DNA from: a virus
Virus record (IMG/VR): IMGVR_UViG_3300008116_000161
Location: 1 to 31,943 of that record
Strand: one strand, 5' to 3'
DNA: 31,943 bases
Part shown: in pieces, positions 763-31,634 of the stretch
How positions within the stretch are numbered: position 1 is the stretch's first letter
How the letters are laid out: the number at the start of each line of letters is the position of its first letter
The notes under the pieces: model-generated
What the model was told of the DNA's origin: nothing
Database searches by the model: none
The model's input: only the letters and a program-made list of their open reading frames with translations
Translations under genes and position numbers: made by a program

Positions 763-1016
763 TTGCCAACCAACTCCAATCGTGCATCCAATAATCCATC
801 AATGAATTGATTGATGATTTCCTTTTCTCGCTCTGTGAAGTCAAGAAAAAGTTTCGCTGTGATTGCGTGGTTCAATGCTTCATCCACTTCTTCAATGGAG
901 ATTGGATGTGATTGCTGAAGCATGAGAAACCCCAAAAAATGTTTCGGTGATAGGTACACCCTAAGCGCTGCAATTGTAGCACCAAGGTGTGACATCACTT
1001 GATTTGGTGACATCAT
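759..1016 (-). CDS. Hypothetical protein (85 aa)
   Basis: Unrecognised, largely helical, soluble protein. No cysteine clusters or membrane segments. Two ATG codons are adjacent at 1016 and 1013; the first overlaps the stop of the upstream HTH gene as ATGA. The middle region SIEEVDEALNHA and the FTEREKEIINQFIDGLL stretch suggest a compact helical bundle. Function unknown; it belongs to the early operon. Confidence 0.7.
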   Translation of the reverse strand: MMSPNQVMSHLGATIAALRVYLSPKHFLGFLMLQQSHPISIEEVDEALNHAITAKLFLDFTEREKEIINQFIDGLLDARLELVGK

Positions 1017-1786
1017 GAGGAAACGAACTCTTGCCTTCTGGCATCCATGATTTCATGAACATTGAACTTGCCATTGACTTTTGCAATCTGATGCTTGCGG
1101 ATGATGCGATACACCTGGCGCTTGCTCACTCCTAACCAAACACAGATGGCCTGGATGTCGAGCATGAATGGCTTGCTCCTATCGCTGGCGACCACCGCAA
1201 TCAAACGGATCACCGACCAGTAGGTTCCGCACCTTCGGCATTCGATGTCGGCTTCAAGGTCTTGCGCTTCCACCAACAATGGCGTTCCGCAGGGAACATC
1301 CTCATCTATCTCCGCAGGGCAGGGGATTCTCCTTGGGGTTTCCACATATCTTCGAGCTGCGACCATCCCACGATTGTGAATGGTTTTCACTTCATCAAAG
1401 AAGTCACCAATCCAATCCTGCTTGATTCCGAAGGTCAGATGCATCAGGTGGAAATTGCAGGTCTTCTCCACTTCCCGTTCAACCTTATCGGGTGGAAGCA
1501 ATCCAGGTTTGGTCAGATGCAGTTCATCCCGAATCAAGGATTCCCATGACCAAAGGATTCTCAGCATTTCGGTGGCCATACTGAAATCCAACGCGGTCAC
1601 ATTGATGCCAATGGATCGCTCACTGGGTCTGCCACCTTTGCCAGTTCTCACGGGTTCAATGAAGAATCCCGCTTCATGATGTAATCCTGGAAGGTCGCGC
1701 AGATAGACCCGAAGTCTAGATTCACATTTCCTGCAAAGATAGGTTTCTTCTTGGTTGGTGTTGTGCTGGCACTTTTGACATTCCAT
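1013..1786 (-). CDS. Zinc-ribbon / helix-turn-helix DNA-binding protein
   Basis: 257 residues. N-terminal zinc ribbon with C3, C6, C18 and C21; a second set of cysteines near residues 155-187 (IPCPAE, VPCGTP, ECRRCG); and a C-terminal helix-turn-helix at about 210-235 (AICVWLGVSKRQVYRIIRKH) of the kind that reads a sequence and sets a scaffold for DNA binding. Proteins with this two-zinc-site plus HTH layout are common in actinophage early regions, where their exact role is not settled; a transcription or replication regulator is likely. It lies just beyond the iteron cluster (2192-2304), so it is a reasonable candidate for the factor that binds there. Start by TGATG coupling at 1786. Confidence 0.75.
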   Translation of the reverse strand: MECQKCQHNTNQEETYLCRKCESRLRVYLRDLPGLHHEAGFFIEPVRTGKGGRPSERSIGINVTALDFSMATEMLRILWSWESLIRDELHLTKPGLLPPDKVEREVEKTCNFHLMHLTFGIKQDWIGDFFDEVKTIHNRGMVAARRYVETPRRIPCPAEIDEDVPCGTPLLVEAQDLEADIECRRCGTYWSVIRLIAVVASDRSKPFMLDIQAICVWLGVSKRQVYRIIRKHQIAKVNGKFNVHEIMDARRQEFVSS

Positions 1787-2163
1787 CAGAACGGAATCCT
1801 TCCATCATCCCCGCCATCGCCGGTTGGCTTCTGGCGCTTGCCAAAAAAGTATTCATGCGATGCCAGCGCCCGAAGGCTGTGGCACGAATGAGCTGCGAGA
1901 ACCACGAATGATCCGGCGGTGTTATTGACGACCTTCTTGTGCCACCAGTTCACTCCATAAGCATCGCGAGCCGAAACCCAAAATTGTCCATTCGATTCCG
2001 GTTGGCACAGGTAGGTGGTCAGCCCTTCATCAATCGCTTTGGCTTCCTCAAAATAGTTGAGCGACTTGGCATCAAGTTCAATCAAAATCTTTCCGCGATA
2101 GTAACCAGACCAAACTGCTGCGCGGCAACTTTTACACCAAGAAGGTTGGAAAACATCATCCAT
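1786..2163 (-). CDS. Hypothetical protein with CxxC (125 aa)
   Basis: Unrecognised. A single CKSC pair at residues 10-13, an AVWSGYYRGKILIELD strand-rich section with the look of a cytosolic phage protein that replaces the common opening 'cysteine pair then beta' fold, and a glycine-rich end (GDGGDDGRIPF). First gene after the 141-base iteron region; no clear Shine-Dalgarno sequence is visible before the ATG at 2163, so it may be translated from a leader that starts inside the repeats. Confidence 0.65.
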   Translation of the reverse strand: MDDVFQPSWCKSCRAAVWSGYYRGKILIELDAKSLNYFEEAKAIDEGLTTYLCQPESNGQFWVSARDAYGVNWWHKKVVNNTAGSFVVLAAHSCHSLRALASHEYFFGKRQKPTGDGGDDGRIPF

Positions 2164-2191
2164 GAGTATCGGCCAAATTCACCGCTTCGGG

Positions 2192-2304
2192 TATTGACCC
2201 CATTCCCCCCCATAGGGGGGGGAATGATGGGTCAATAGAAACCCCTACGCCTTGCCACTTTATTGACCCGCTATTGACCCATTGACCCACACTGCGGGTC
2301 AATA
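2192..2304. repeat. Six-copy iteron cluster (TATTGACCC), candidate replication origin
   Basis: Seen directly: copies of TATTGACCC at 2192-2200, 2261-2269 and 2272-2280, ATTGACCC at 2281-2288, and inverted copies GGGTCAATA at 2229-2237 and 2296-2304, within 113 bases. The first and second copies form the arms of a long imperfect palindrome; copies three and four are 11 bases apart (one helical turn). It fills nearly all of the non-coding gap between the primase-helicase gene and the next early gene. Iterons beside a replication protein are a hallmark of theta-type origins; a multi-site operator for the adjacent HTH protein or a promoter region (TTGACC resembles a -35 box) is the alternative. 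Confidence 0.75.
2201..2226. other. C7/G8 hairpin palindrome inside the iteron region
   Basis: CATTCCCCCCC, an ATA loop, then GGGGGGGGAATG, giving an 11-base-pair stem with one extra G. The flanking iterons extend the pairing with a small bulge to 2192-2237. No T tract follows on either strand, so it is not a standard terminator. It may extrude as a cruciform at an origin or act as a strand-switch signal. Confidence 0.7.
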
Positions 2305-4368
2305 CTAAATCGAGAGAGAATTCAATGGTTGCCAAGGCTCATCACCTTCTTCATCTTTGATCCAAACGAACATTTTCGCCCGACCTTTTTCCCGATAGCC
2401 AAGCAATCCATCGTTGGCCAAACTCATCAGCGCGGTCTTCACTGCATCGGTTCGGTGCGGGATTTCTTCGCTCATCAAGATTTGATGTTGGCTCATCTCT
2501 GTTCGATGACCTCTCATGAACTTCATGACCGCTGACCGCACGATGTCACGCTTGTCAGGCATCGCTTCCGGGGTCGCACCGGCGAAGTGAATGCCCACGC
2601 CATCGCCATTGGAAGCAAGATGAACTGTTCCCAATTGAGTGGCTTCAAGGCAGATGGCACGCACAAAGCCAGGGCGGTCTTTCGTCACCTTCAATCGCAG
2701 CTCACCAGAACCACCACGACCAAAGGGCATCACCATCTCCACTGCTATCGCACATCCATCAATGTCAGCGCGCTTGGCCTGTGCGCCGATGGCGTAGTTC
2801 CCGCGTGAATCTTTGGATTTGGTCACATGATCAATCGTTACCACTGCCGCGCCGAAGTTGCGAAGCGGGCGCAATACCATCTGCGAGAAGTAGGTGGCAT
2901 CCTTGTTCTTCTCCAAATCAAGACCCATCAGATTCATAGCCGCATTGACACCATCCACCACCACAAGCGTAGGGTGATGTTCTTCCAGAGATACCTGAAG
3001 GAAATCCCTCACTGCCACATCAAAGGCATCATCGGGGTTGGCGTAATGGAAGAACAGGAAATTCGTTTGCTCCACTCCTAGCGCCTTCAGTCGGCTTCTA
3101 ATGCCATGCCGGGAATCTTCAAAATCTAAATAGAAGACCTTATGGCCTTCCATCAATTGTTCGACTACCGCAGCGAGCGCAACCCATGTCTTGCCGGATT
3201 CACTCTCACCAAAAAGGGCGTTTATTTTTCCAGGATAGAAAACTGCATTGCCATCTTCACGCCGAAAGATGGTGGGCTTTATGTCTTCGCCATCATCTTC
3301 CCAATCCACCAAATGCGGAATCCAACTGGATTCAGGTTTGGGCTGACCTTCTTCATCTAGCGGTGTGATCAAAGCAGGTGAGGAAAGGGTGGGGGTGGCA
3401 ACCGCAATCCCGCCGTAGCCCATCTTGCGAAGTTCTCTGGCAGCAGCCCGGAAATCTCCTTGATGTTCTAAATGGGTGAAGGCGGCAAATTTGGAATAAG
3501 GTCGCTCTGCTTCGAAGGTGGTGCTGGTGGTGAAGACAAACAAATTGTCACCGCCGTTGCGACCTGTGGTGGCGCTGATGCCCGTTTCTTTGCCAGGTCT
3601 GCGCCAGTAAGTTGTTCCCTTTGCGGTGAAGACTTTCTTCCAGCCAAGTGGTTCCAAGATTTGTTCCCATTGCACCCGTTGGTTGTAATCATCGCCAGGG
3701 GTGAGATTGCCATCTGCGCTTGGGGTGATTTCATGCTTGATGGCTTCCACCTGGGGCATCGAATCAAAGGCGTGGAAGATGGCGTGCAGTGCTTCGCGCT
3801 CTGCCATCGTCAAGGTAGGAATTGTTTCTGGTGATCCATGAAGGATTTTCCACGCACCGCCTGATGGATGCACAGTGCCGGCGCTAGGGGCAACAATCAC
3901 AAATCCACCTTCGCCGCGTGTTTCCACCAGAACTTCCACGCCGCCGTTCTCACCTGGTCGGCGGGCGATTTTGGTGTTGCCCGGAACTTCTCCATCGCTA
4001 ATCCGATAAAGCCAATGAAGACCGCCCGATGGTGTCACTTCGATGTATCCGGCATTGATGGTCTTCCAGATGTCGCCCAAACCGCTGGCGGCGGCGATGT
4101 CGGCGGCTTGTTCGTGGATTCCTTCTGCCACTGCGCGACCTTCAAGTTCGAGCATTTCCAGATTGCCACTGACCTTGCCACAGATAAGCCCTAGGCCATC
4201 TTGCGGTTTGGCAAACCATCGCATCAACTCACTGGCTTCAGGCTGGCGTTCTTGATATTTCTTCCAACTATCAATGCCGGGTCTTTTACTGCCATCGGTG
4301 GCAACTGGTACAACAGAAATACCCGCCGTTGCAAACTTCAGTGCTTGGGTCAGAATTTCTTGGCTCAT
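2305..4368 (-). CDS. Primase-polymerase / helicase fusion
   Basis: 687 residues. N-terminal bifunctional primase-polymerase domain (about 5-200): AGISVVPV opening, acidic pair E74/E76 in LELEG at the metal site, GGLHWLYR with H118, and ETRGEGGFVIVAPS at 149-162. Middle linker, then a RepA/DnaB-like ATPase (AAA_25 type): Walker A GESESGKT 387-394, VFYLDFED 411-418, Walker B LVVVDG 468-473, and TIDHVTKS after it. The C-terminus (about 615-680) looks like a winged helix. It should prime and unwind phage DNA at the fork. The metal-site motif reads E-x-E rather than the more usual D-x-D. ATGA overlap with the methyltransferase upstream; its end abuts the iteron cluster. Confidence 0.9.
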   Translation of the reverse strand: MSQEILTQALKFATAGISVVPVATDGSKRPGIDSWKKYQERQPEASELMRWFAKPQDGLGLICGKVSGNLEMLELEGRAVAEGIHEQAADIAAASGLGDIWKTINAGYIEVTPSGGLHWLYRISDGEVPGNTKIARRPGENGGVEVLVETRGEGGFVIVAPSAGTVHPSGGAWKILHGSPETIPTLTMAEREALHAIFHAFDSMPQVEAIKHEITPSADGNLTPGDDYNQRVQWEQILEPLGWKKVFTAKGTTYWRRPGKETGISATTGRNGGDNLFVFTTSTTFEAERPYSKFAAFTHLEHQGDFRAAARELRKMGYGGIAVATPTLSSPALITPLDEEGQPKPESSWIPHLVDWEDDGEDIKPTIFRREDGNAVFYPGKINALFGESESGKTWVALAAVVEQLMEGHKVFYLDFEDSRHGIRSRLKALGVEQTNFLFFHYANPDDAFDVAVRDFLQVSLEEHHPTLVVVDGVNAAMNLMGLDLEKNKDATYFSQMVLRPLRNFGAAVVTIDHVTKSKDSRGNYAIGAQAKRADIDGCAIAVEMVMPFGRGGSGELRLKVTKDRPGFVRAICLEATQLGTVHLASNGDGVGIHFAGATPEAMPDKRDIVRSAVMKFMRGHRTEMSQHQILMSEEIPHRTDAVKTALMSLANDGLLGYREKGRAKMFVWIKDEEGDEPWQPLNSLSI

Positions 4369-4967
4369 ACAGTTTCCCCCATTGCGACATCCAAGATGTA
4401 TTTGCCAACCGGATGATGCACACAGTTGCGCAAGATTTGGCGCTTTTCGCTGATTTTGTATTTGCTCAGATCATAGCCATGCAATTCTTGAAGGTCAGGA
4501 ATTTGTGCGGTTCGTATCCTGTCGGCTTCGAATTTCTTTTCTGGAATGTGAAAGTTCGACCAAAAGAAATGGCGTTGTAGTTCCACATTGGGTTCAATGA
4601 GTGGCCGATAGTAGGGCTTTACATTTTCGACAACCCATTGACCATCATGATGATTGTTGAGGAAAATGATTTCCTGATACAACCGCATGTCGGGATAGAC
4701 CGGCTCCACACCCCGATACCTCACGCCGATATTGAACCGGAAGCTGCTGTGTGATTGACAAGGCGGGGAAGACCAAATGAAATCAAATTCCCGATAATGC
4801 TCCAAAAGAAATTGATGCGCATCACCAACAATTACTTCATCGTGTGGGAAATGGTCTGCATAAATTTCCGCAATCTTTTCGTCATATTCAACGGCGGTGA
4901 TGTGGTGTTCGTTGCCCCAACTTTTCCGATTGCCACCAATGCCGGCATACAAATTCAGGATTTTCAT
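4365..4967 (-). CDS. C5-cytosine DNA methyltransferase (short)
   Basis: 200 residues. SAM-binding LYAGIGG (6-12), EYDE at 27-30, SSPPCQSHSS with the catalytic Cys at 70, and VVENV at 113-117 are the motifs I, II, IV and VI of C5 methyltransferases. The domain is short, with little room for a target-recognition domain, as in many phage orphan methylases. No restriction partner is near, so its role is probably self-protection against host restriction. Coupled to the upstream gene by TGATG and to the primase gene by ATGA. Confidence 0.88.
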   Translation of the reverse strand: MKILNLYAGIGGNRKSWGNEHHITAVEYDEKIAEIYADHFPHDEVIVGDAHQFLLEHYREFDFIWSSPPCQSHSSFRFNIGVRYRGVEPVYPDMRLYQEIIFLNNHHDGQWVVENVKPYYRPLIEPNVELQRHFFWSNFHIPEKKFEADRIRTAQIPDLQELHGYDLSKYKISEKRQILRNCVHHPVGKYILDVAMGETV

Positions 4968-7946: not shown

Positions 7947-8278
7947 CGGTAGCCTGCCTTTTTGAGCAGCTCAACCAATGCCCCAAGTGTGAGGATGGCC
8001 GGCCAGGATTCGATGGTTTTCGAACCTGTGCCATCCAATCGAAGAACAGCCACCGCAAGGTGGTCTTCCTTCGAACGCTCTTTCAGTTGTTTCATCGCTT
8101 CAGCAATCGGAAATCCCCTGCGGGCTTTGACTTCAAAATCAACATTCTTGATGTTGATGATGTCAGTGCCTTGGGAACCTGCACCGGCGCTGGTGGCGTA
8201 TTCGTATCCATTCTCTTTCAAGAAGTCAGCCACCATTCGTTGTGATGCATATCCCCGATGCTTGCGATGATTTGTCAC
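7943..8278 (-). CDS. PD-(D/E)XK endonuclease, Holliday-junction-resolvase-like
   Basis: 111 residues. RGYASQRMVADFLKENGY helix, SQGTDIINIK with D39, then FEVKAR with E49 and K51: the D...ExK core of small resolvase-type nucleases such as Hjc. A likely role is cutting branched intermediates or nicks during recombination-dependent replication. It starts with GTG at 8278 (GTGA overlap with the methyltransferase stop) and overlaps WhiB by ATGA. Confidence 0.78.
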   Translation of the reverse strand: MTNHRKHRGYASQRMVADFLKENGYEYATSAGAGSQGTDIINIKNVDFEVKARRGFPIAEAMKQLKERSKEDHLAVAVLRLDGTGSKTIESWPAILTLGALVELLKKAGYR

Positions 8279-8883
8279 CCAATCACATCCAAAATTTCTT
8301 GCCCTACTTCATAGGGAATCATGGATTTGATTTTCGCATTCTTCAATCCTTGCGTGCCAGTTTGTGATCCTCTGGGCGCAGCTTCATGGCAAGTTGCCTT
8401 TGGCTTACACATCGGGCGTGGTTGCCAGTGCTGGATGTTTGTCCACAAATCGGTGGGCTTCATACGAGTGTCACCATATTGGCAATACGCAATCGTGTGA
8501 CGAATGCCAGGAATCAAATCCAGTTTCCTGAGCATTCCTCTGGGATTTTCGATGACCCACCATGATGGCGAAATGGCTTGAATGAGTTCGACAGTTTTTT
8601 GAACCATCCGCATGCCAGCCAGCGCCTTCTCATTTTTTGGCGTGCGATCAAGATTCCAATGGCGACCAATACTGGCCACGCTGAAGGTTGTGCAGGGCGG
8701 GGAAGCCCAAATGAAGTCTGGCTTGCCGTACTTGCCAACCATGTATTCGGCAGTCAAACCCATCACATCCCTCTCATGAGCCGGAAAGAATTCATCCAGT
8801 TCGACCTTGATGACTGTGTGGCCGGCATCTTCGAAGGCGCGGGTTGCGCTTCCTGTTCCGGCAAAGAAATCATAAATCAGCAC
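8275..8883 (-). CDS. C5-cytosine DNA methyltransferase (second, short)
   Basis: 202 residues. YDFFAGTGSATRAF (motif I, 4-17), VELDEFF (27-33), ASPPCTTFS with catalytic C64, and IENPRG (111-116, replacing ENV) mark a C5 methylase. The remaining length leaves little for a target-recognition domain. GTG at 8883 is preferred over a reading from further upstream because the upstream part overlaps another coding frame. No restriction endonuclease is nearby. It is clearly distinct from the methylase at 4365-4967. Confidence 0.83.
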   Translation of the reverse strand: MLIYDFFAGTGSATRAFEDAGHTVIKVELDEFFPAHERDVMGLTAEYMVGKYGKPDFIWASPPCTTFSVASIGRHWNLDRTPKNEKALAGMRMVQKTVELIQAISPSWWVIENPRGMLRKLDLIPGIRHTIAYCQYGDTRMKPTDLWTNIQHWQPRPMCKPKATCHEAAPRGSQTGTQGLKNAKIKSMIPYEVGQEILDVIG

Positions 8884-9079
8884 GAAGGAATTCCATCCAG
8901 AGTTCTTCACGCTCACGAAGATATGAGCGATTTTTGGTGATGGCAAAAAGAATCTGCCGGGTGATTTCGCATTCTGGATGCTTCCACCAAATCGAGCATT
9001 TGCCATCCTCAATGTTGGTGCAGGTGTAGAACTCACCTTCAATGAGCGCGACCACCTGCACGATTGTGTCTGGATTCAT
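8870..9079 (-). CDS. Hypothetical protein (69 aa)
   Basis: Unrecognised. Beta-rich N-terminal part (TIVQVVALIEGEFYTC) with three cysteines (TCTN, GKCSIW, PECEI) then a helix (NRSYLREREELWMEFLRADL). Starts in an ATGA overlap with the upstream membrane gene and overlaps the methyltransferase by 14 bases. The cysteines could bind a metal, but no known family is recognised. Confidence 0.65.
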   Translation of the reverse strand: MNPDTIVQVVALIEGEFYTCTNIEDGKCSIWWKHPECEITRQILFAITKNRSYLREREELWMEFLRADL

Positions 9080-30053: not shown

Positions 30054-31634
30054 TTATGTCCTCACAGAGAAATATCTTGCAACGGGTTTTGCCTTTTCTT
30101 GCGGTTGTGTTGCTCTGTCGTAACCAAAAATTGCTGCGACAGCCGCATCCACTTTTCGCTTGGAAGATGCCTTCGCAACCATTACGCCACGCGAAGATTG
30201 CTTGGTGACACAGTTTCCAATATGCCGCGCAAGTCTTTCATCACCATCATGAGTGAAGGATTGATTCATCACTGCTTCAAAAAACTTCTGTGTGGCCGGA
30301 ACCATGCGTTCTGCGTTGTTGGGGTAACTGACAACCGGCAACCCGTCTTCATCCAGAAGCATCATTGTTCTCTGCCAGCGTGCCGGGTCGAAAACGATTT
30401 CCCGAACATTGAACCTTGAATCTCTGGCGGTGTTGATGATGGTTTGTTCAACTTCTGCGATGGGAACATGCCAGGTGTTGTCGGCATCTTCTGGTCGCTC
30501 CCATAATCCAACAACCATCAAGTGCGGTTTTTCCCCGCCTAGCATCCACGCAACAAGTGCGGTGGAATCGTTGCTGAATGCGCCATCAAAGGCAAGAACC
30601 ACATCTTCGCCAGGAACAGGTTCGCGATAAGGCTGTGCCAGTGCTGACCACGATCCATCAGGAAGCCAAGCAGTTGAAGTGCTGACGAACATGTTCATTC
30701 GCTTGGTCTTGAATTCTGCTTCTGGCGTTCTCAGAACTGCGCTGTGAAAATCTTCTGCATCCACGATGTCATCAAAGCCGGGGTTGGCTTCCGCCCAGGC
30801 CAGTGGGTCTTTGAAATTGGCATCGGCGCTCGCCGGTTCCCACCATGCGAAGAAGAATGACGGATCATCAATTTCACCACTGATGATTCGCTTGCCGTAC
30901 TCATAAAGCGAGAAGCACAATGAATCTTGGCCGTTCGCAGCTGTTTTGACACCGGCAGTTGTGATTCCGAAAAGCAAGGAATCAGCGCGAGCGCCACCGG
31001 CAAGTGACATGACATCCCAAAGTTCTCGCGTGGGTTGTGCGTGAACTTCATCGAAGATGATGACGGGCGAAGGGTTCAAACCTTCTTTGGTATAAGCCTC
31101 AGCGGAAAGAACGCGATAGACCGAACCCTTTTCCTGGAATTCGATGGCATCCCGATACAACTTGAACATCCGCGAAAGTTCAGGATCAAGTTCGACCATC
31201 CTGCGGGCTGTTCCAAAAACAATGCGTGCCTGGTCGCGGTCAGCTGCGCAGGAAAGAATCTCTGATCCATTACCGCCAAGGGTTAGGCCAGCAAGACCAA
31301 CGCCGGCTGCCAATTGCGACTTGCCATTTTTTCGCGCCATCCCAACAAGGGCTGCGCGGTGTTTGAATCTTCCATCAGGTCTGCGTGCGAGCAGATGTGA
31401 AAGCAATTCGGTTTGGAATGGGCGCAGTTGTAGCAGCTCACCTGCCGGTGCTGCGATGGAATCCTTTGTGACCCTACAAACCGCTTCAATGAATTTTGCA
31501 TACAGTTCGCCATCGCCGCGTTTGCGGTCAGCTGCCGAAACTGGCGTGAGCCAGCGCGGTGGCCAGGTTCTAGTTGCGGCTTTCTTTTTGCCGGATGAGG
31601 TCTTCAAGTGCTGTCGCCCGCCGTACTTCTGCAA
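30054..31634 (-). CDS. Terminase large subunit
   Basis: 526 residues. ATPase with Walker A-like GMARKNGKS (98-106) and Walker B VIIFDEVHA (191-199, D195/E196); nuclease beginning at LAFDGAFSNDSTAL (D350), with the later FDPARWQR and the C-terminal KRKVDAAVAAIFGY. This is the packaging motor and headful or cos nuclease. The start is uncertain: TTG at 31634 overlaps the small subunit by 65 bases, TTG at 31607 is another possibility, and no ATG/GTG with a good ribosome site was found. Confidence 0.93.
   Translation of the reverse strand: MQKYGGRQHLKTSSGKKKAATRTWPPRWLTPVSAADRKRGDGELYAKFIEAVCRVTKDSIAAPAGELLQLRPFQTELLSHLLARRPDGRFKHRAALVGMARKNGKSQLAAGVGLAGLTLGGNGSEILSCAADRDQARIVFGTARRMVELDPELSRMFKLYRDAIEFQEKGSVYRVLSAEAYTKEGLNPSPVIIFDEVHAQPTRELWDVMSLAGGARADSLLFGITTAGVKTAANGQDSLCFSLYEYGKRIISGEIDDPSFFFAWWEPASADANFKDPLAWAEANPGFDDIVDAEDFHSAVLRTPEAEFKTKRMNMFVSTSTAWLPDGSWSALAQPYREPVPGEDVVLAFDGAFSNDSTALVAWMLGGEKPHLMVVGLWERPEDADNTWHVPIAEVEQTIINTARDSRFNVREIVFDPARWQRTMMLLDEDGLPVVSYPNNAERMVPATQKFFEAVMNQSFTHDGDERLARHIGNCVTKQSSRGVMVAKASSKRKVDAAVAAIFGYDRATQPQEKAKPVARYFSVRT

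Follow-up and report, generated by a model that had tools for sequence, protein, structure and literature searches.

An iteron and hairpin array directly 3' of a phage prim-pol/AAA_25 gene as a probable replication origin

Introduction

Which function belongs to six near-identical short repeats crowded into the non-coding gap behind a phage primase-helicase gene, and which protein reads them? The locus lies in a virus record that was analysed at its full length of 31,943 bases, here called the window. The sequence-only reading had suggested an iteron-type origin, considered unusual for such a phage, and had named operator sites for a nearby helix-turn-helix (HTH) protein as the alternative. 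The genome encodes terminase, portal, capsid and tail genes, as well as a Cas4-like exonuclease, a RusA-like resolvase, endonuclease VII and a WhiB-like gene. WhiB-like genes are typical of actinobacterial phages, which makes an actinobacterium the probable host. Neither a DNA polymerase nor an integrase was found among the proteins scanned from this metagenome-assembled contig, the completeness of which is unproven. Two DNA-methyltransferase-like genes (4365-4967 and 8275-9042) were observed in the half of the genome that carries the replication genes.

Results

The repeat array and its neighbouring genes

The intergenic region with the proposed origin comprises 141 nt (2164..2304, no strand assigned), and the array occupies positions 2192-2304. 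It is non-coding, with the prim-pol stop codon (2305-2307) on one side and the start of the next gene (2163) on the other. Six exact copies of ATTGACCC are found here, of which five extend to TATTGACCC and one reads CATTGACCC. Iteron 1 (TATTGACCC, 2192..2200, + strand, ATTGACCC at 2193-2200) and the inverted iteron 2 (2229..2237, - strand, 2229-2236) are the outer left and outer right arms of a palindrome. Iterons 3 and 4 (TATTGACCC, 2261..2269 and 2272..2280, both + strand, with ATTGACCC at 2262-2269 and 2273-2280) are followed by iteron 5 (CATTGACCC, 2280..2288, + strand, 2281-2288), 8 nt from iteron 4, and by the inverted iteron 6 (2296..2304, - strand, 2296-2303), which abuts the prim-pol stop codon. 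In the whole window ATTGACCC occurs 10 times against 1.23 expected from dinucleotide shuffles, and 6 of the 10 lie inside 113 nt (Poisson P about 1e-17 for one stretch of this length). The exact coordinates and the shuffle count confirm the cluster as it was first described, i.e., four direct and two inverted copies in 113 non-coding bases. The distance of one helical turn proposed for copies 3 and 4 was likewise recovered, at 11 nt start to start, and copies 1 and 2, described as palindrome arms, do flank a perfect hairpin. This GC hairpin core (CATTCCCCCCC-ATAG-GGGGGGGAATG, 2201..2226, no strand) has an 11-bp stem (2201-2211/2216-2226) and a loop at 2212-2215.

Folded as single-stranded DNA, the intergenic gap reached z = -7.6 versus shuffles. 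Such a strong hairpin right after a stop codon would also suit a terminator or leader hairpin acting at the RNA level; however, no T-run follows it, a terminator scan gave no entry for it, and dispersed direct iterons that change together with a protein domain (see below) would be left unexplained. We regard an RNA element as highly improbable.

The gene adjoining the array (2305..4368, - strand) encodes the proposed initiator, a protein of 687 aa with a prim-pol domain (PF09250, aa 9-181), a helicase-type ATPase domain (AAA_25, PF13481, aa 379-519) and a C-terminal winged helix. The first two domains were recognized by Pfam and the third by a structural model, all in one chain, and the winged helix is the part that would bind the origin. 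It extends over about aa 606-669 (2362..2553, - strand) and is proposed as the iteron reader on the basis of an AlphaFold model, PDB matches and covariation. In the model, block-mean pLDDT was 72-85 within the domain and low outside, with a fragment mean of 64. The best structural neighbours in the PDB were winged helices of regulators and DNA-binding domains of the Hop2 type. No Pfam family matched the winged helix of the window, and its relatives gave weak winged-helix matches. The predicted recognition helix, at about aa 640-653 (2410-2451, - strand), varies, along with other segments, from one iteron kind to another. Where the iterons have a TTGACC core, as in two kinds, this helix begins with T-D in both, which is suggestive only. 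The next gene past the array encodes a small CxxC protein of 125 aa (1786..2163, - strand, phrog_10480, function unassigned), followed by a zinc-finger/HTH protein of 257 aa (1013..1786, - strand, phrog_908), the synteny of which is common to relatives.

Several near-identical short repeats in non-coding DNA next to an initiator gene are what an iteron origin is recognized by, and this is the arrangement found here. Other origin signatures gave little. An AT-rich unwinding element is absent, a point against the origin: the AT fraction of the window array is 0.46, and arrays are on average 48% AT versus 52% in the flanks. DnaA boxes appeared solely as single matches with one mismatch, none of them near the array. 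Cumulative GC skew, which had been suggested as a check, has its minimum near 16.2 kb and its maximum near 0.3 kb, with no extremum at 2.2 kb; this goes against the origin on its face, although skew says little here because the major genes all share one strand.

Conservation of the array among relatives

A profile search of viral contigs yielded 380 encoded relatives of the initiator, of which the best 80 were fetched, and a further 32 loci were fetched via the HTH gene. In two relatives with prim-pol proteins 92% and 89% identical to that of the window, all six copies are kept in identical order, orientation and spacing (15, 8, 11, 33, 36), so that the conservation expected of a functional site in close relatives was indeed found. 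The intergenic block of the same two relatives is mostly letter-identical and more conserved than the coding flanks. Throughout their whole records the copies cluster at the array only, with scattered single copies elsewhere. Three other records, 21-34 kb long, had the exact motif ACCGATCCG in the array and nowhere else.

Among the best 80 of 380 relatives and the 32 additional loci, which are the highest-scoring ones and not a random sample, the array lies directly 3' of prim-pol in almost every case with enough downstream sequence. Of three apparent exceptions, two (L097, L126) have the array about 500-800 nt further on, and the third (L107) has it inside an extended prim-pol ORF. In L097 and L126 the stop codon and the array are separated by extra sequence with an open frame. 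In L107, as well as in L181 (Dagobah), the repeats are part of the initiator ORF, at its C-terminal end, and are translated into repetitive peptides such as NLTDLTD or EPVGEPV. Five loci (L049, L061, L077, L095, L108) have longer arrays, in which a further set of repeats precedes the usual one and the gap reaches about 230-260 nt. The view that such an array is out of the ordinary in phages of this sort was thus mistaken, as nearly all examined relatives have one at the same place; arrays in some less related primase/AAA_25 replicons, described further below, contradict it too.

The repeat sequence itself is specific to the lineage. We sorted the arrays into about 14 kinds, a sorting of our own in which some borders (ACTGTTCC/ACCGTTCC) are not sharp; the kinds include TATTGACCC, CTGTTTCCC, ACTGTTCC, ACCGTTCC, ACCGAACC, ACCGATCC, ACCGATAC and TTGACCG. 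All copies within one genome change together. The 8/11-nt phasing of direct copies is common to six kinds. A core of C-run, short loop and G-run recurs as a hairpin across many kinds, and it therefore seems to evolve separately from the iterons. Iteron kind changed at least 22 times on the tree of the protein core and at least 16 times on the tree of the C terminus, 13 changes being the minimum for 14 kinds.

Arrays without an initiator gene were considered as possible signs of satellites and rejected as such. In 24 of 26 newly listed contig hits, obtained with exact patterns of two other kinds, a prim-pol gene adjoined the array; of the remaining two, L198 breaks off where its contig ends, and L196, a phage of unrelated type, has repeats lacking the matching hairpin. 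Most other hits of a scan for three copies of GGGTCAAT look like unrelated tandem repeats.

Exchange of the winged helix together with the array

Closely related loci indicate what reads the iterons. In the pairs L084/L088, L049/L052 and L058/L060, identity amounts to 99.3-99.7% over prim-pol residues 1-595 and to 95-98% in the DNA of the next gene, but to 40-63% over the last ~95 prim-pol residues, which comprise the winged helix and are accompanied by iterons of another kind. Identity drops some 300 nt short of the stop codon and returns 150-250 nt past it, at the next gene. The sole difference between otherwise near-identical neighbouring stretches is a block of ~430 nt, made up of the C-terminal winged helix and the array. 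Control pairs of one kind have identity profiles without the dip. The winged helix and the array are exchanged as one block. No exchange pair turned up within the TATTGACCC lineage of the window itself, where exchange is suggested by the homologues. In three pairs the iterons had appeared to differ despite similar winged helices; this was an effect of the distance measure, each pair representing one repeat kind with differing copy number.

The same association was found across the wider set. Among 71 distinct loci, iteron distance correlated with distance in the C-terminal segment after the effect of the core was removed (partial r 0.64; none of 2000 permutations as high), and segments outside the C terminus reached a partial correlation of at most 0.35. 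Among pairs with cores at least 94% identical, iterons and winged helix correlated at 0.95, against values of 0.08 (core), 0.02 (HTH protein) and 0.00 (small protein), all derived from 36 non-independent pairs of few lineages. From these sequence comparisons we strongly infer that the winged helix binds the iterons.

These values also bear on the alternative raised at the outset, that the array consists of operators by which the zinc-finger/HTH protein (1013-1786) controls the downstream operon. The genes for the small CxxC protein and the HTH protein do follow the array, in a synteny that is kept. However, in L058/L059, L058/L061 and L059/L061 the HTH proteins are 96-99% identical, with the HTH the same or nearly so, and the repeat kinds differ; the low correlation among close pairs (r = 0.02) points the same way, and the only promoter-like match within 1700-2700 is on the other strand and at chance frequency. 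As the source of repeat specificity the HTH protein is contradicted, because 96-99% identical HTH proteins go with different repeats, and the domain that does covary is the winged helix of prim-pol. This alternative is accordingly given very little credence. Recombination, packaging and partition sites can have inverted repeats around a central palindrome, and the array resembles them in this respect. Nevertheless, no integrase was found among the proteins scanned, and the array adjoins the primase gene, far from the terminase gene (30057-31634), and covaries with the primase-helicase, so a role of this sort appears scarcely credible.

Discussion

Comparison with known replication systems

The position and the proposed reader of the array can be compared with several characterized systems. 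In plasmid pRN1 a stem-loop 3' of the gene for a prim-pol/helicase/winged-helix protein is required for replication; within the pRN1 family the stem-loop sequence diverges with structure and flanks kept, and stem-loops in a few phages were noted by the authors (PMC4234260). As in pRN1 ORF904, an AEP prim-pol, a helicase and a C-terminal winged helix are here united in one protein, with a stem-loop 3' of the gene. The helicase is of the AAA_25/RecA-like type (PF13481) here and SF3 in pRN1, which moreover has no iterons; covariation between winged helix and origin, as observed here, was not found described for pRN1 (PMC4234260). In phage-inducible chromosomal islands (PICI), plasmids can replicate from an iteron ori that lies 3' of pri-rep (PMC6092414). 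The likeness to the PICI/SaPI pri-rep-ori arrangement, where ori function was shown experimentally, is one of position only, i.e., immediately 3' of the primase/initiator gene. PICI origins have two iteron sets around an AT-rich melting region, whereas the present array has a GC hairpin and no AT-rich region, and the gene is a phage core gene here and a satellite gene there.

These precedents help to decide between an origin and a second regulatory possibility, in which the prim-pol winged helix itself would read the array as operators, serving not at an origin but as autoregulator or switch for downstream genes. Such folds are common in repressors, and all of the covariation evidence would suit a binding site of any function. 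Yet the array lies 3' of its reader's own gene and has no apparent promoter, and both pRN1 prim-pol and PICI pri-rep place the origin at exactly this position. We therefore consider such a switch unlikely, if less so than the other alternatives. Specificity follows the primase-helicase, and the site is where related systems keep their origin; the array is therefore most simply an origin. In our judgement it is probably the replication origin, with the prim-pol/AAA_25 helicase carrying its own reader, the C-terminal winged helix. The iteron-type origin first suggested from proximity to the primase is thereby the best-supported reading, given that the array is conserved in place and its specificity tracks the winged helix.

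Further parallels concern the protein and its exchange. The P4 alpha protein unites primase, helicase and a winged helix that binds short origin repeats (PMC4234260). The same three activities would be combined here, with origin binding by the winged helix presumed; the P4 primase is of the TOPRIM type, unlike the PF09250 prim-pol, and repeat sequence and layout differ. In the PLE of V. cholerae, the RepA_N DNA-binding domain covaries with the iteron ori, both are exchanged as cognate modules, and the pairing is proven (PMC8263062). Covariation and exchange of an initiator DNA-binding domain with its iteron array are common to both cases, whereas PLE is a satellite element with a separate RepA initiator and iterons of about 30 bp, and the exchange unit described here is one contiguous block. 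AAA_25 ATPases and RepA of RSF1010 are related. At the RSF1010 origin, iterons and hairpins are used by a primase and a helicase, within the RepA/RepB'/RepC set (PMC4234260). Unlike the present single chain, these are three separate proteins, and the iterons are read by RepC, not by the helicase. The combination of a phage core gene, an AAA_25 helicase, an iteron-plus-hairpin site and a contiguous exchange unit was not found described in the open-access literature searched.

By analogy with such systems, the origin might be fired as follows. Through their winged helices, several initiator copies would contact both the inverted pair and the phased direct iterons, and a ring of the RecA-like helicase would thereby assemble at the hairpin. 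This ring would then open the DNA, the prim-pol domain would lay primers, and a host polymerase would extend them. That the origin fires, that the hairpin takes part and that a host polymerase is used are all proposed from analogy.

Occurrence beyond the group and significance

Some less related replicons, hand-picked and meant as leads rather than a survey, were inspected directly 3' of their AAA_25/prim-pol genes. Repeat clusters above shuffles were found in Microcystis phage MinS1, Streptomyces plasmid p-XQ-29-C, two Arthrobacter phages and a Streptosporangium locus, and weakly in Streptomyces phage Dagobah and Microbacterium phage Hendrix. The arrays in MinS1, a cultured phage (L182:4158-4380), and in p-XQ-29-C, a small plasmid (L180:3159-3370), are strong and of the iteron-plus-hairpin type, directly 3' of the AAA_25 gene. 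No 3' cluster was seen in RootBeer, Shambre1 or Dulem virus 38, and none clearly in pKRAD02. The Dagobah protein had no relatives among the viral contigs. In an unrelated phage (L020:2455-2629, also L032 and L038), a 774-aa gene seems, as read by eye, to include a RecA/AAA_25-like ATPase segment, and an irregular array of AATTGACCCCT on both strands lies at the gene's stop codon and shortly beyond; this is possibly the same layout in another lineage.

A probable origin and its initiator can thus be assigned, by sequence alone, to a large and mostly uncultured phage group. The natural domain exchanges are ready-made experiments on which winged-helix residues read which bases, and MinS1 and the Streptomyces plasmid, with their similar 3' layout, offer tractable systems. 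The findings also raise a testable question, namely why phage origin specificity changes so frequently. One tentative answer, which we hold to be possible rather than likely, is that winged helix and iterons form a "password" of about 14 kinds that diversifies fast in a widespread environmental phage group and is traded as one block, under selection for escape from whatever reads the origin, be it co-infecting phages, satellites or origin-directed nucleases.
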